Shown: piece after piece, positions 3,216 to 9,545 of the stretch
Layout: every line of letters starts with the position of its first letter
How positions within the stretch are numbered: the stretch's first letter is position 1
Origin: Flavobacteriales bacterium
GTDB taxonomy: Bacteria > Bacteroidota > Bacteroidia > Flavobacteriales_F > PHOS-HE28
NCBI GenBank assembly: GCA_017987115.1
Contig: JAGNUG010000001.1
Span: 1-33,404 of the forward strand
Length of the DNA: 33,404 bases
Direction: 5' to 3'
The notes under the pieces: generated by a model
The model's database searches: none
Told to the model about the DNA's origin: nothing
What the model saw: only the letters and a program-made list of their open reading frames with translations
Program-made: the position numbers and the translations under genes

Positions 3216-3354
3216 AGGGGTGGACGGTTGGGGAGAACATGAAAGAGATCATGTTTTACACCGAGTGATGGGAATCCTTGGAGTTAGTTACACTTTACCG
3301 CGGATGAATCGATAATGGTCCGATCTCGGGTCAATGCCTTTCACATCGGCTACC

Positions 3355-3362
3355 TACCTTCG
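3355..3362 (+). promoter_or_regulatory. Candidate -7 box TACCTTCG directly before the aminopeptidase start
   Basis: TACCTTCG differs from TAnnTTTG by one base and ends 4 bases before the ATG at 3367. If used, the transcript would be leaderless or nearly so. The minus-strand genes thiL and the WYL regulator show similar arrangements. Confidence 0.35.
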
Positions 3363-3366
3363 CAGC

Positions 3367-4674
3367 ATGCGTTACACACCCCTCAAAGCCACTACCTACC
3401 GCGAACATCGAGCACGTTTCTGCAAGGCAATGGTGGAAGGTGGACTTGCCACCTTCCACAGCAATGACATCATGCCAACGAGTGCAGATGGTTCCATGCC
3501 GTTCAAACAAGCTACGGATATCATGTACCTTACGGGCATCGACCAGGAGGAGAGCATTTTGTTGTTATTCCCGAATGCACAAGATCCCAAGGACCGTGAG
3601 ATCCTTTTCGTTCGTGAGACCAATGACCACATCGCTGTATGGGAAGGTGCTAAATTCACCAAGCAAGAAGCAACGGATCTTAGCGGGGTTGCAACGGTTC
3701 TCTGGACCAGCGCTTATGAAGCTACATTGAAACGACTTGTGCCACAGTGCGATAGCCTCTACCAGAACAGCAATGAACACCTACGTCAAGGCAACGAAGT
3801 GGAAACGCGTGAGGAACGTTACAATAAGAAATTACGAATTCAGTTTCCATTACATGCGGTAAAGCGAAGTGCACCGATCATGCACCGCATCCGCAGTGTA
3901 AAAACTGCAGAAGAGATCGCGCAGATGCGAAAAGCGGTTGCTATTACCGGCAAGGCCTTTGCGCGTGTCTGTGACTTCATCAAGCCGGGTGTTATGGAGT
4001 ATGAGATCGAGGCCGAGATCACGCACGAATTCCTGCGGAACGGCTCACGTGGACATGCATACACACCAATACTTGCCAGTGGATACAATGCCTGTGTGTT
4101 GCATTACATAACAAATGATCAGAAGTGCAAGGACGGCGATGTGATCCTGATGGACTTCGGTTGTGAATACGGAGGATATGCAAGTGACCTATCGCGCAGC
4201 ATCCCGGTGAACGGCAGGTATACCAAAAGGCAACGTGCGGTGTACGATGCCGTATTGCGTGTAAAAACCGCTGCTACAAAGTTGCTCCGCCCCGGCACCA
4301 TGCTCGGTGAATACCACAAGGAAGTGGGCAAGTTGATGGAGAAAGAATTGTTAGCGTTGAAACTGATCGATAAGACCGACATCAAGAACCAGGACCCTGC
4401 ATGGCCGGCCTACAAAAAGTACTTCATGCACGGCACCAGTCACTTCATTGGTCTCGATGTGCATGATGTGGGCCTATGGAACGAACCGATCAAAGAAGGC
4501 ATGTGCTTCACGGTGGAACCCGGCATCTACGTTCCTAAGGAGAATCTGGGGATCCGCATAGAGAACGATATTCTGGTAACCAAGAAAGGCCATGATGATC
4601 TGTTCAAGGATATTCCGCAAGAGGCGGAGGCTATTGAAGAGATGATGAATTCAGGAAAGAAAGGAAAGAAGTGA
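3367..4674 (+). CDS. pepP: Xaa-Pro aminopeptidase (M24B, PepP type)
   Basis: This cytosolic metallopeptidase removes N-terminal residues that precede proline. It has 435 residues: an N-terminal creatinase-like domain (about 1-170, including NSNDIMPTSADG-like sequence) and a C-terminal pita-bread catalytic domain. The two-metal ligands can be read as Asp263, Asp274, His359, Glu384 and Glu399. They occur in LMDFG, YASDLS, GTSHFIG, TVEPGIY and IRIEND, with spacing close to E. coli PepP. An in-frame ATG at 3334 would add 11 residues; I chose 3367 because homologues begin MRY-P and a promoter-like box sits at 3355-3362. The lysine-rich tail is unremarkable. It is monocistronic and divergent from sdhC. 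Confidence 0.93.
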   Translation: MRYTPLKATTYREHRARFCKAMVEGGLATFHSNDIMPTSADGSMPFKQATDIMYLTGIDQEESILLLFPNAQDPKDREILFVRETNDHIAVWEGAKFTKQEATDLSGVATVLWTSAYEATLKRLVPQCDSLYQNSNEHLRQGNEVETREERYNKKLRIQFPLHAVKRSAPIMHRIRSVKTAEEIAQMRKAVAITGKAFARVCDFIKPGVMEYEIEAEITHEFLRNGSRGHAYTPILASGYNACVLHYITNDQKCKDGDVILMDFGCEYGGYASDLSRSIPVNGRYTKRQRAVYDAVLRVKTAATKLLRPGTMLGEYHKEVGKLMEKELLALKLIDKTDIKNQDPAWPAYKKYFMHGTSHFIGLDVHDVGLWNEPIKEGMCFTVEPGIYVPKENLGIRIENDILVTKKGHDDLFKDIPQEAEAIEEMMNSGKKGKK

Positions 4675-4791
4675 AGCTTGGCCGTAACAGAACACAGAAA
4701 ACGCTGATAGAATTGACAAACGGGAATCTTAGAAGCTAACAGACAATAGGTTCGTGCACAGCATTTCGCAATTGATAAGACACAAAAAAAA

Positions 4792-4819
4792 GCCCGGTCA
4801 GTTCCTCAACTGACCGGGC
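4792..4819 (-). terminator. Strong intrinsic terminator acting on the minus strand
   Basis: GCCCGGTCAGTT (4792-4803) and AACTGACCGGGC (4808-4819) form a perfect 12-bp stem with a 4-base loop. Read on the minus strand, it is followed at once by a run of eight T (the A run at 4784-4791). On the plus strand no T run follows, so it does not terminate the aminopeptidase transcript. The only candidate upstream on the minus strand is the small unit starting near 4992. Confidence 0.9.
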
Positions 4820-4897
4820 AACCACCAAACCAAAAATCCAAAAAACAAGGGGCGCTCAACTCCCTTTATTGTTGCGGGCAGGTTACCCGCGTTTCAT

Positions 4898-4966
4898 TCA
4901 ACTACCTTGGTCGTTAAAGATCCAGAGGTTCGTGTTCGAAGTCGTATTCAAGTTCGTAGTTTTCAT
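4898..4966 (-). CDS. Possible 22-residue small protein or leader peptide
   Basis: A minus-strand ORF of 22 codons begins MKTTNLNTTS and ends LWIFNDQGS, with TGA at 4898-4900. It is rich in Asn and Thr and has no membrane segment. It lies 32 bases downstream of a TAGCTTTG promoter box and about 80 bases upstream of a strong terminator. Downstream of its stop are two small predicted hairpins: GCGGG/CCCGC around 4875-4891, and an AAGGG/CCCTT pair just before the T-rich stretch near 4840. No downstream gene on this strand could be controlled by attenuation, because the next one leftward is convergent. It may be a genuine small protein, a chance ORF inside a small RNA, or a dual-function RNA. I do not recognise a family. 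Confidence 0.4.
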   Translation of the reverse strand: MKTTNLNTTSNTNLWIFNDQGS

Positions 4967-4998
4967 CGCAACGAGGGGGTTTTGATTTCTTACTTGAC

Positions 4999-5029
4999 CA
5001 AAGCTACGCCTATGTCCAGTTGCATAAAA
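4999..5029 (-). promoter_or_regulatory. Candidate promoter TTTT-N19-TAGCTTTG
   Basis: On the minus strand TAGCTTTG (4999-5006) fits TAnnTTTG perfectly. TTTT (5026-5029) sits exactly 19 bases upstream where TTTG is expected. It points into the short ORF and terminator described for this spacer. Confidence 0.55.
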
Positions 5030-5070
5030 GTGGTGAACGAGCAACGGCGGATGTCAATGAATGAACGGTA

Positions 5071-5154
5071 CGCGCCCTACGGTCGTATTGCTCGCTTTGC
5101 TCGATTCCTGATTCCTGATCGCGCCCTGCGGTCGTATTGCTGATTCCTGATTCC
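5071..5154. repeat. Imperfect direct repeat in the spacer before the response regulator
   Basis: Copy 1 has CGCGCCCTACGGTCGTATT at 5071-5089 with GATTCCTGATTCC at 5103-5115. Copy 2 has CGCGCCCTGCGGTCGTATT at 5120-5138 with GATTCCTGATTCC at 5142-5154. The copies differ by one base in the first block and by a 10-base insertion between the blocks. The rest of 5030-5254 holds no convincing gene. A plus-strand frame across it is an artefact of the repeat. Confidence 0.75.
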
Positions 5155-5254
5155 GGAATTTAAAGATACCGTTGCTGAGCCACGACCAACCGTTCACTGG
5201 TCTAACCATTCCTACTACATTGCACGATCTATCTTATCCCCAAATCTGAACACC

Positions 5255-6007
5255 ATGGCATTGCGCGCACTGATCGTAGATGATGAAGCCGACGCACGGG
5301 AAAACCTGCGGATGATGCTTGAAGCCCACTGCCCGGAAGTGGAGGTCGTGGGCGTTGCGGCAAGCGCACCGGAAGCACGGGATAAGATCAAAGAGCTACA
5401 ACCCAATGCGCTCTTCCTGGATATAAAAATGCCCGGAGAGGATGGTTTCTCGCTGTTGACGTCGATCGCAGAACTTGATCTTCCCGTGGTCTTTACTACG
5501 GCATACGATGAATTCGCATTGAAGGCTTTCAAACAGAATGCATTGGGCTATTTGGAAAAACCGATCGATATTGATGAATTGCACCGGGCAGTGAAAATGC
5601 TCATGAAGCAAACGGGTGAACTGGGATCAACTACCCCATCCGCGATCGCAGCATTGATGAAGGACCCGGCATCACCTTTGAGCAACAGGGTTGCTATACC
5701 TGGCCGCGACGGGTTGGTCCTACTAAAGCACAAGGACATCTTGTATTTGGAAGCCAACGATAGTTACACGACCATCCATACCGTAGATGGCAAACGTTCG
5801 GTCAGCAGCAAGCATATTCGTGTGTTCGAGATGAACTTGGACCCAAAAAGTTTCTTCAGGGTGCACAAATCCTATATTGTAAACCTCTCTCACCTTAAAG
5901 AATTCAGTCGCGCTGAAGGAAATATGGCAGTGCTGGACAATGGAGCATTGGTGCCTGTTTCCCGGAGAAGATTACCGGACTTCCTCGCGTTGATCAATAC
6001 GTTCTAG
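5255..6007 (+). CDS. LytTR-family response regulator
   Basis: This cytoplasmic DNA-binding response regulator of the AlgR/LytR type has 250 residues. The receiver domain (about 1-120) has acidic residues Asp9 and Asp10, phosphoacceptor Asp56 in LFLDIKMPG, Thr81/Thr82 and Lys102 in EKPID. The C-terminal LytTR domain (about 148-247) carries the typical YLEANDSYTTIHT, FFRVHKSYIVNL and VPVSRRR segments. It is followed after 128 bases by a LytS-type histidine kinase gene, an unambiguous cognate pair by position and domain type. Its target genes cannot be told from the window; LytTR proteins usually bind pairs of short direct repeats. Confidence 0.95.
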   Translation: MALRALIVDDEADARENLRMMLEAHCPEVEVVGVAASAPEARDKIKELQPNALFLDIKMPGEDGFSLLTSIAELDLPVVFTTAYDEFALKAFKQNALGYLEKPIDIDELHRAVKMLMKQTGELGSTTPSAIAALMKDPASPLSNRVAIPGRDGLVLLKHKDILYLEANDSYTTIHTVDGKRSVSSKHIRVFEMNLDPKSFFRVHKSYIVNLSHLKEFSRAEGNMAVLDNGALVPVSRRRLPDFLALINTF

Positions 6008-6135: not shown

Positions 6136-9100
6136 ATGTTCAGAATCGGTCGAAGTATGTCGATCATGAAAAAATGGATCTCAGCATTCGATCTCACCGT
6201 GAATGGAGGTCTATTCTCATGCGTTTTTAGGTTCATACTTGCGTTTGCGATCCTCAATGTATGCGGCCCTGGTCTTTTCGCCCAACAATACGCCTTTACG
6301 CAAGTAACACCCAGTGACGGTCTTGCACAGAGTCAAGTGCGGACCATTGCCCAGGATGGCCGGGGCTATTTATGGTTCGGAACACTCGGTGGCGCGAGCC
6401 GATTTGACGGTGCGCGATTCCTGAACTATTCGTTGCAAGATGGATTGCCGGATGCCCAAGTGAGCGCAATGTCCATTGATGGCGATGGTAATTTGTGGAT
6501 GGGTTGCGGTGCAACCATTGTGCATCGCAATGGCCTCACTTGGATCAACGAACCATTACCCAAAAGCAATGGGGGCGCCAGGATCCAGAGCATGGTCTTT
6601 TCCGGAAATGGAAAGCTTTATACCGGAACGGATGGCGGTGGATTATGGGTGCGTGACTCGGATGGGATCCACGCCGTGGAAGGTTATCCAACAGATACCG
6701 CGGCCAGCATACGTTCCTTATTAGCACTGAGCGATGGTCGATTGTTGATCGGATTGCGCAATGGTCTCTTGCTTTGGGATAATGGCCAATGCAAGCGCGT
6801 CGTACTTAATGCGGATGAACCCGAAGCAATTTCCGCCTTGGCGGAAGGCGCGGACGGATCTTGGTGGGTCGGCACATACTTGGATGGTCTGTTCCGTATG
6901 GAACCGAACGGTGTACTGACCCATTTCAGCGAAGAAACCGGCCTGATGCGAAATAACGTTCGGAGCATTTTGGTAGACAGGACCGGGCGTGTATGGGTCG
7001 GAACGAAGTTGGGATTGAATGTCTTCGACGGTGACCGTATACGGGTATTCACCATTCACCAAGGCATGCCGAACGACAATATTTATTGCTCGTTCCAGGA
7101 TAATGAAGGGAATATCTGGTTCGGAACGGATGGCGCCGGTGCCATCAGATTCCTAGGTGATCGTTTCGTGACCTATACGGTAAAGGACGGTATGTGCAGT
7201 GACCTGGTGATGACCATTGTTGCCGATGGCCAAGGTGATCGCTGGCTAGGAACTTATGACAACGGTGTTTGTCGCATGGATGGAATGGCGATCGTCACCA
7301 CCCGGGAGGGATTACCGAACAACACGATATGGTGCGGACTAAAGGATAGGAACGATGCGCTTTGGTTCGGAACGAACGAAGGCCTCGCAAAGATCGAACG
7401 AGGTGTTCCAGTTCTACTTCCTCCGAAAATAGCAATGCCCGAACTACGCATCCTGTCACTTTTGGAGGATGCGCAAGGTCGTATCTGGTGTGGAACTCGT
7501 GAAGGGTTGGCCGTTGTAAATCCCGACGGAACTACGAAAAGATACCCGGCCGGAACAAATGGACCTGGACGAAGCATACGCGGGATCATTGCCGATAAGA
7601 AAGGCCGACTGTGGTTCGGCTCAGATCATGGGATCGGTGTTCTTAACGGCAACGCGTTCGGTAAATATGGGGTCAAAGATGGTCTCTGCGATAGCACTGT
7701 ACAATGTTTGTTGCACGACGACGATGGCAGATTATGGATCGGCACCAACAACGGTCTTTCCTGTTTCGAGTCTGGCAAATTCAGGACCTTTCGTTTCGCT
7801 ACGGATTTCGGATCGAATTTTTTTGGTCTGCTTCAATACGATCAAACCGGAAGAATATGGGCAGGGACCAACAATGGGCTATTCCTCTTTCAACCAGATA
7901 GCCTACTGAATGATCCTTTGGCCTACGAACACATAACGAGGAGCGCTGGCCTGGTCAATCTGGAATTCAATTTGAACGCTGGATATCTGGATGATAATGG
8001 CCGGTTATTTCTGGGTAGCGCAGGCGGACTGGTATTTCATGATACCCGCCGTTACCCGAACTCTCCTGTCGTAAAGGCACCTCAAGTACACATAACCGGA
8101 GTGCGCTCATTCCTTCAACAGACGGATTGGAGCAAGCAAAGCGACAGTATCTCGCCAAAAGGTCTGCCCATCGGACTGGACCTTGAATACCGAAAGAATT
8201 ACCTCACATTCGATTATACCGGCATAAGCCTCAGCGATCCGGACCGGGTGCAATACCGTTACAGACTTGAAGGATTCGACCCCGATTGGCTACCCGTGAC
8301 CGATGCACGTTTCGCCAGCTATAGCAACTTGCCGAACGGAGAGTATACGTTCCAGGTCATTGCTGCGGTAGGTGATAAGGACTGGAGTGCCCCAGACACG
8401 TTCACATTCAGCATTGCTCCGCCTTTCTGGTTACGTTGGTGGTTCTTCTTGACCGTTGCGACCGTAATTGCTGCAGCAGCATATGGCGTTATCCACGCTC
8501 GCTCTTTAGTGCGCCAACGCCACGAACGAACGCGCCAATTGATGTTGAGATCACGCATGTTGCAATTGGAACAACAAGCACTGAATTCCAATATGAACCG
8601 CCATTTCGTATTCAATGCGCTGAATAGTATCCAATACCATATCAATAAGCAGGACCGGGAGACCGCTAGCCGCTACTTGAGCAGCTTTGCGAAGCTGATC
8701 CGTAAAAATCTGGATGCCAGCCAAAGCGATACGACGACATTGGAAGAAGAACTGGAACGACTGGAACTTTACCTCACCCTGGAGCACATGCGCTTCAAAG
8801 ACAAATTCCGCTATGAAATTATCGTTGCTCCTGATGTGAACACGGCGGAAGTAAGACTTCCAGCTATGATGTTACAGCCCTATGTGGAGAACAGCATTTG
8901 GCATGGAATACTGCCAATGGAAGATCAGGGATTGGTCCGTATTGAAGTCTCCAAGGCGCGTCCAGGACGGGTCCTTGTGCGCATAGATGATGATGGAATC
9001 GGATTTGATCGAAGTATGGAGAATAAAGAGAAGAACGACCATATATCCCGCGGGATCGAGATCACCAAGGGTCGAGCGGACGTCCTTAGGAAACTGGATC

Positions 9101-9243
9101 TCACTGATATTCGTATTACAGGACCTGAACAATGGCACGAAATAGGCACCAATACCGTTATAGGTACACGGGTGGCGATCGAGCTACCTGCTGTAGGCAG
9201 CTTGAATAAAATGGAAGAACAGTTGCATAACGACGTCAAATGA
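6136..9243 (+). CDS. Two-component propeller sensor histidine kinase (Reg_prop, Y_Y_Y, His_kinase)
   Basis: This is a membrane sensor kinase of 1035 residues. A signal or anchor segment (about 1-48) is followed by some 14 propeller blades with W-x-G-T-like motifs (GYLWFGT, GRVWVGT, GNIWFGT, GRIWCGT and others, about 50-650). These are enough for two seven-bladed Reg_prop propellers in the periplasm. A Y_Y_Y domain (about 686-755), one transmembrane helix (about 763-788) and a LytS-type kinase core follow. The phosphorylated histidine is His823 in NRHFVFNALNSIQ, where the usual NPHF proline is Arg. The ATP-binding N box is VENSIWHG (about 915) and the G box is DDDGIGF. In-frame starts at 6157 and 6166 are possible; the latter gives a more ordinary signal peptide. 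Its TGA overlaps an upstream ATG of the lipoprotein frame. Confidence 0.94.
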   Translation: MFRIGRSMSIMKKWISAFDLTVNGGLFSCVFRFILAFAILNVCGPGLFAQQYAFTQVTPSDGLAQSQVRTIAQDGRGYLWFGTLGGASRFDGARFLNYSLQDGLPDAQVSAMSIDGDGNLWMGCGATIVHRNGLTWINEPLPKSNGGARIQSMVFSGNGKLYTGTDGGGLWVRDSDGIHAVEGYPTDTAASIRSLLALSDGRLLIGLRNGLLLWDNGQCKRVVLNADEPEAISALAEGADGSWWVGTYLDGLFRMEPNGVLTHFSEETGLMRNNVRSILVDRTGRVWVGTKLGLNVFDGDRIRVFTIHQGMPNDNIYCSFQDNEGNIWFGTDGAGAIRFLGDRFVTYTVKDGMCSDLVMTIVADGQGDRWLGTYDNGVCRMDGMAIVTTREGLPNNTIWCGLKDRNDALWFGTNEGLAKIERGVPVLLPPKIAMPELRILSLLEDAQGRIWCGTREGLAVVNPDGTTKRYPAGTNGPGRSIRGIIADKKGRLWFGSDHGIGVLNGNAFGKYGVKDGLCDSTVQCLLHDDDGRLWIGTNNGLSCFESGKFRTFRFATDFGSNFFGLLQYDQTGRIWAGTNNGLFLFQPDSLLNDPLAYEHITRSAGLVNLEFNLNAGYLDDNGRLFLGSAGGLVFHDTRRYPNSPVVKAPQVHITGVRSFLQQTDWSKQSDSISPKGLPIGLDLEYRKNYLTFDYTGISLSDPDRVQYRYRLEGFDPDWLPVTDARFASYSNLPNGEYTFQVIAAVGDKDWSAPDTFTFSIAPPFWLRWWFFLTVATVIAAAAYGVIHARSLVRQRHERTRQLMLRSRMLQLEQQALNSNMNRHFVFNALNSIQYHINKQDRETASRYLSSFAKLIRKNLDASQSDTTTLEEELERLELYLTLEHMRFKDKFRYEIIVAPDVNTAEVRLPAMMLQPYVENSIWHGILPMEDQGLVRIEVSKARPGRVLVRIDDDGIGFDRSMENKEKNDHISRGIEITKGRADVLRKLDLTDIRITGPEQWHEIGTNTVIGTRVAIELPAVGSLNKMEEQLHNDVK

Positions 9244-9260
9244 TGTACTTTTGGTCTACG

Positions 9261-9545
9261 ATGAACGCCTACGTCACAAAACTTCGTCTCCTCACCGGCC
9301 TGTTATTGGTTGCTGTTCTGGGGTTCACTTCGTGCACGAAGGACGAGTTAGTGGCGCCGCATTGTCCGCAGGAGAATAGCGATGCTGTAAGCAAATCACT
9401 GGGTTCCTCGAATTTTGTAACCGATGGTAAGCCATCCGCGACCATCAAGTCGGGAGATGGTACCGTGAGCGATGGAACGGATTCCGCGATCAGCGATGAT
9501 GGCGATGACCTTTCCGGCTCAGAAGGCCGTAAGCCGAAGAACTAG
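9261..9545 (+). CDS. Small acidic lipoprotein next to the two-component system
   Basis: This predicted lipoprotein has 94 residues. The signal peptide runs MNAYVTKLRLLTGLLLVAVLG, with a lipobox-like FTSC, so the mature protein would start at the Cys and be acylated. The mature part is about 70 residues, low in complexity, rich in Ser, Asp and Gly, with a lysine-containing tail (GRKPKN). An ATG at 9240 overlaps the kinase stop codon and would add seven residues, but 9261 gives the better signal peptide. It is very probably co-transcribed with the kinase and is followed by a hairpin terminator. No family recognised. A sensing or accessory role for the kinase is only a positional guess. Confidence 0.7.
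   Translation: MNAYVTKLRLLTGLLLVAVLGFTSCTKDELVAPHCPQENSDAVSKSLGSSNFVTDGKPSATIKSGDGTVSDGTDSAISDDGDDLSGSEGRKPKN

Follow-up and report, generated by a model that had tools for sequence, protein, structure and literature searches.

A 22-codon ORF on the minus strand of the window (the whole stretch of 33,404 nucleotides that was analysed) is probably the first cistron of an operon for T9SS-secreted proteins under the control of a LytTR two-component system, orphaned in this genome, and its peptide would mimic the signature of the BIG and C8 proteins. The assignment as an orphaned leader cistron is close to certain, because nearly all relatives carry this ORF as a first cistron, and reading the same place in the relatives explains what had been annotated initially as an orphan mini-gene. 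A function at the level of the peptide in the genus is considered highly likely; on the codon comparison, action via the peptide appears clearly more likely than action via the RNA. That the mimicry acts in trans is a tentative proposal, somewhat short of an even chance; the complete picture, in which a free micro-peptide copies the eight-residue signature of a T9SS family, serves as a trans mimic under the two-component system that also drives the secreted proteins and survives alone here, is possible, if rather doubtful.

The promoter-like box, the 22-codon ORF, the small hairpin and the 12-bp terminator with eight T, all reported in the initial annotation, were recovered on the minus strand where it had placed them (Table 1). 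TTTT at 5029–5026 (−) is followed after a spacing of 19 nt by TAGCTTTG at 5006–4999, and in a strict pattern scan this pair was the sole match to TTT[TG]-N18-20-TAnnTTTG in the 33-kb window; to this extent the TTTT-N19-box promoter of the annotation holds, whereas TTTT at −33 is not conserved in the relatives, in which a direct repeat of the LytTR type is conserved instead. The terminator stem (4819–4792, −) has 12 perfect pairs followed by eight T and should end the transcript. The minus strand between the mini-ORF and the convergent pepP (3334–4674, +) holds no gene, in agreement with the statement that no larger gene follows on that strand. The 212-nt RNA is more stably folded than its shuffles (z = −2.4; 3/200 shuffles at least as good), and the unit gave no match to the curated covariance models of Rfam, just as no known class had been recognised before. 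ATG ORFs of 15–30 codons are frequent (197 in the window), so the 22-codon ORF by itself proves nothing and the case rests on comparison with relatives.

Table 1: Features of the locus, with positions in the window.
Feature	Position	Strand	Remarks
Xaa-Pro aminopeptidase (M24), pepP, convergent	3334..4674	+	flanks the locus in several relatives too
Terminator: 12-bp stem, loop of 4, eight T	4784..4819	−	position of the covarying 14–17-bp leader hairpin of relatives
GGTTTGGTGG motif ahead of terminator hairpin	4822..4831	−	common to relatives
GCGGG/CCCGC hairpin	about 4874..4890	−	not seen in relatives
22-codon ORF MKTTNLNTTSNTNLWIFNDQGS	4898..4966	−	ATG 4966, TGA 4898; C-terminus found in 34/39 readable genus loci
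Codons of conserved octapeptide WIFNDQGS	4901..4924	−	pS 0.61, pN 0.089 (32 loci)
5' UTR element AAAACCCCCTCGTTGCG ahead of ATG	4967..4983	−	common to leaders of relatives and some C8 genes
−7 promoter element TAGCTTTG	4999..5006	−	relatives TAG[TC]TTGG; Bacteroidetes consensus TAnnTTTG (PMC6847099)
LytTR-like repeat 2 CCGTTGCTCGTTC, 21 bp from repeat 1	5035..5048	−	at −41 in 28 loci; CCGNT in 23/28
Upstream LytTR-like half-site ACCGTTCATT (repeat 1)	5060..5069	−	at −62 from −7 box in 28 loci; exact CCGNT in 17/28
Divergent LytTR response regulator (RR)	5255..6007	+	Pfam Response_reg and LytTR; adjacent in all loci examined
Sensor histidine kinase (HK; Reg_prop propeller, Y_Y_Y, His_kinase)	6136..9243	+	Pfam; conserved neighbour

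The DNA search of relatives returned weak matches clustered on the end of the mini-ORF, and reading them showed an ORF that ends in WIFNDQG[S/N]-stop or a near variant. A degenerate pattern for WIFNDQG[SN] matched once and only once in 28 of the 45 genomes of the genus, the reversed-pattern control giving 0 matches, and this conservation lifts the mini-ORF above chance; at the same place, 34 of the 39 readable genus loci, a count that takes in loci found via neighbours and not via the motif, carry an ORF of 16–24 codons with this ending or a close variant. In a sample of 345 genomes from across the class, no match to the stricter motif pattern fell outside this genus. The five exceptions (G060, G061, G065, G067, G001) have kept decayed remnants of the motif; the RR+HK tree includes four of these five and groups them in a single clade. 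At L160, L161, L163, L168 and L091 gene A and the leader hairpin are kept and the mini-ORF is lost, with motif DNA remnants recognisable; from the five ORF-less genomes with gene A it follows that the peptide and the operon are separable.

For the codons W to G the pN/pS ratio was about 0.14 (32 loci; most sequences were gathered by the motif itself, which biases pN downward), and for the six codons just upstream it was about 1 (pS 0.68, pN 0.67; 32 loci). All 32 loci have the W and the G, D, Q, F and I are almost as constant, and the synonymous variation in the motif codons was GAC/GAT, CAA/CAG and GGN; the variants WILSEQGS, WVFNDQGN, WLFNDLGN and WIFVDQGS, found by synteny, fit the same pattern of selection. 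As judged from these codons, apparent protein-level selection acts only on the last eight codons of the mini-ORF.

In all loci examined, the genes divergent to the mini-ORF are those for this LytTR response regulator and this propeller kinase, and CCGNT (−62) and CCGTTGCTCGTTC (−41) stand at a constant distance from TAG[T/C]TTGG (28 loci). The binding sites of LytTR regulators consist of 9-bp repeats set 12 bp apart (PMC6193735). The promoter is predicted to be LytTR-controlled, with 9-bp direct repeats and a 12-bp spacer upstream of it and a LytTR regulator present; like the promoters regulated by AgrA and HdrR/BrsR (PMC6193735) it has these repeats just upstream and a LytTR regulator at its side, here a divergent one, and unlike them it has a −7 element of the Bacteroidetes type and a regulator paired with a propeller histidine kinase, not with a membrane inhibitor. 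Promoters of Flavobacterium johnsoniae seldom have a G as the third base of the −7 box (PMC6847099); its presence here would suit an activator-dependent promoter. As a marker of the regulon CCGTTGCTCGTTC was discarded, most of its other genomic copies being without the tandem repeat.

Behind the mini-ORF the relatives carry gene A (about 85 aa), usually a small gene B and often C8, which encodes a T9SS-secreted protein, and in 33 relatives the mini-ORF lies before gene A, gene B or BIG. The order in G021 is RR, mini-ORF, BIG, gene A, C8; in G057 gene A comes after BIG; in G030, which is without gene A, gene B is kept behind the mini-ORF. Gene A was present in 29 of 30 good genus genomes, the window genome being the sole exception, and no relics of A, B or C8 were found around the mini-ORF of the window. 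The earlier view of a stand-alone gene rather than a leader is therefore right for the window genome, where the ORF has a promoter-to-terminator unit of its own, and fails for nearly all relatives, where it is the first cistron.

In one large clade a hairpin of 14–17 bp lies behind the mini-ORF, between it and gene A. It covaries strongly, both partners having changed at 10 of 16 pairs (31 cells; 0/500 shuffles). It has no good U tract, does not occur in the other clade, which has kept the ORF, and is kept in relatives that have lost the mini-ORF; as a dispersed repeat it was ruled out, since nearly all copies are at this locus. The window stem at this position has become a strong terminator. 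A U-tract terminator between leader ORF and gene, as in a transcription attenuator, was not found: U8 occurs only in the window, and no gene lies behind it. Of the elements whose conservation in close relatives the initial annotation had proposed to check, the ORF is conserved, the GCGGG/CCCGC hairpin is not, and the terminator is so in part, its stem having a counterpart in the covarying hairpin and its U8 tail none.

When 301,670 nine-mers (859 ORFs) were scored with a PSSM built from the nine residues at the C-terminus, the best-scoring one was WWIFNDKGN, which belongs to large secreted proteins. The pattern W[IV]FNDxG[N/D/S] had a match in 44 of 58 genomes (control: 0), and in 30 loci that were read every match was either the mini-ORF or a member of one secreted family of about 1400 aa (BIG), whose signature resembles GDQNIWWVFNDKGNTHTESGGQPIGMEIRAQAFAF. 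C8 and the BIG family are homologous. A chance likeness is possible (for the best PSSM match we estimate an expectation of about 0.02 per genome), but the shared locus makes it less likely. Most of the sampled class members have roughly one BIG gene each, with W[IV]FNDKGN near-invariant (examples: L243 (G000:C146, window genome), L245, L246, L247 and others). The mini-ORF as a shrunken remnant of BIG, which is upstream of gene A in G021 and G057, was rejected, as G021 has the mini-ORF and a full-length BIG in series. A further motif match in the window genome is a second mini-ORF, MRRPRHTWVFNDQGDL-stop (L244; G000:C194, about 5217–5240, minus); it is intergenic, before a secreted-looking ORF of 1326 aa and away from gene A, RR and BIG.

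Gene A is predicted to fold as an Ig-like beta sandwich (pLDDT 88), and the closest folds to the model were the CTD of PorZ (Z 10.1, rmsd 2.3, 81 aligned), DUF3244 proteins and T9SS CTDs. Pfam and NCBIfam gave nothing at threshold for gene A of the genus; the kinship to T9SS tails surfaced only with a wider profile, TIGR04183 being found in 5 of 13 gene A homologues (best 1.1e-9). By fold and, via the wider homologues, by sequence profile, gene A of the relatives is like the T9SS type A CTD (TIGR04183; CTDs of PorZ and RemZ); unlike that CTD, which is the C-terminal tail of a secreted protein, it is an ORF of its own without a signal-peptide-like start, and it is thus classed, on its model, as a stand-alone T9SS-CTD-like protein. 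All nine C8 proteins (9/9) matched the T9SS tail profile, and the C8 motif is predicted to lie on a confident beta strand (residues 200–207); outside its CTD the C8 model had weak fold matches only (TM about 0.2–0.3), and Pfam gave nothing on BIG and C8. Several C8 genes have their own repeat, −7 box and similar 5' UTR (CAAACCCTGTTGCCATG).

The following mechanism would account for these data. The phosphorylated LytTR regulator would activate the promoter through the direct repeats (21 bp), and the transcript would be translated into a soluble peptide of 16–24 residues, the peptide and not the RNA being the product. Its C-terminal W-I-F-N-D-Q-G-[S/N] would, as the most likely mechanism, mimic the strand and turn that make up the signature of the BIG/C8 secreted proteins, with which it is co-regulated; the peptide might then bind whatever handles the BIG/C8 motif, possibly the putatively cytoplasmic T9SS-CTD-like protein A, and so tune the handling or the expression of the BIG/C8 products. 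In the window genome it could act only in trans, on the unlinked BIG, or else would be a late relic. Against mimicry stands the lack of a signal peptide, which would make the peptide cytoplasmic, while the proteins that bear the motif are secreted.

A leader peptide acting in cis, the nascent WIFNDQG[SN]-stop of which stalls or slows the terminating ribosome and thereby controls the hairpin or the translation of gene A, with a leftover in the window, is a serious possibility, over which trans mimicry is rated slightly above. In TnaC and SpeFL, nascent-chain stalling of the ribosome controls downstream expression. The mini-ORF shares with TnaC, SpeFL and peTrpL the place directly after the promoter as first cistron, a C-terminus conserved up to the stop, by sequence comparison, with a free N-terminus, and in some relatives a hairpin behind; the clustering of ORF lengths at 18 and 21–22 (34 loci) and the covariation of that hairpin in one large clade speak for the same reading. 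Unlike these leader peptides, the mini-ORF ends in the signature of a secreted family and persists here without an operon, so that its place in the 5' leader of a regulated gene, seen in 33 relatives, has no counterpart in the window genome. We know of no arrest motif that matches the end of the peptide. The independent presence of hairpin and ORF, the varying downstream gene (A, B or BIG), the BIG-like ending of the peptide, which arrest in cis leaves unexplained, and the intact ORF with nothing behind it in the window genome argue against the cis reading; trans mimicry is preferred because the peptide shares its motif with the co-regulated cargo, because hairpin and ORF can occur one without the other, and because the ORF has stayed intact here. 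For peTrpL, action of a leader peptide in trans is documented (PMC7298713).

For the window genome alone, a neutral relic, left by a recent loss of the operon genes and yet to decay, is unlikely. The downstream genes are gone, retention of the mini-ORF after loss of the operon was seen in one good genome only, and this genome sits on a long branch; but no damage is seen in the eight motif codons, the start codon, the 5' UTR element, the repeats or the −7 box, and the hairpin has a perfect stem with U8 whereas A, B and C8 have left no trace. A stand-alone regulatory small RNA of about 210 nt, for which the promoter, the terminator and the low folding energy would speak, is very improbable and was rejected, because selection falls on the codons: the RNA beyond the motif codons and the hairpin is hardly conserved, synonymous codon variation is a mark of coding, and the Rfam match is absent; of the alternative left by the initial annotation, small RNA or small protein, the latter is retained, the peptide and not the RNA being conserved. 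Least credible of all is a secreted pheromone for the adjacent kinase (Agr/ComC-like), suggested by the position of the peptide gene next to a histidine kinase and a LytTR regulator and by the LytTR-like boxes of its promoter, since none of the 34 peptides read has an export signal or a hydrophobic or double-glycine leader, no exporter or processing gene was seen beside the mini-ORF, and the conserved end lacks the variation between species that is typical of peptide pheromones.

We found no described system in which a LytTR/propeller-kinase switch goes together with a stand-alone T9SS-CTD-like protein and with a peptide that repeats the signature of the secreted products; in the literature there was no paper with the motif and none joining LytTR with leader peptides or with T9SS in Bacteroidetes. 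To our knowledge, few leader peptides or micro-ORFs have been described in Bacteroidetes, and the locus offers a testable starting point for asking how type IX cargo may be tuned in these bacteria.

Gene A homologues in other families (L151, L152, L281, L284, L285) are also near LytTR regulators, propeller kinases or C8-like genes; in the upstream DNA of L151 and L152, which was read, no mini-ORF was seen. Between the promoter and the response regulator gene (5071–5155) the window has imperfect direct repeats (GCGCCCT.CGGTCGTATTGCT, GATTCCTGATTCC). An ORF of 101 aa (9240–9545, +) overlaps the end of the kinase gene, and a homologous small ORF, in one case lipoprotein-like, comes after the kinase in several relatives.
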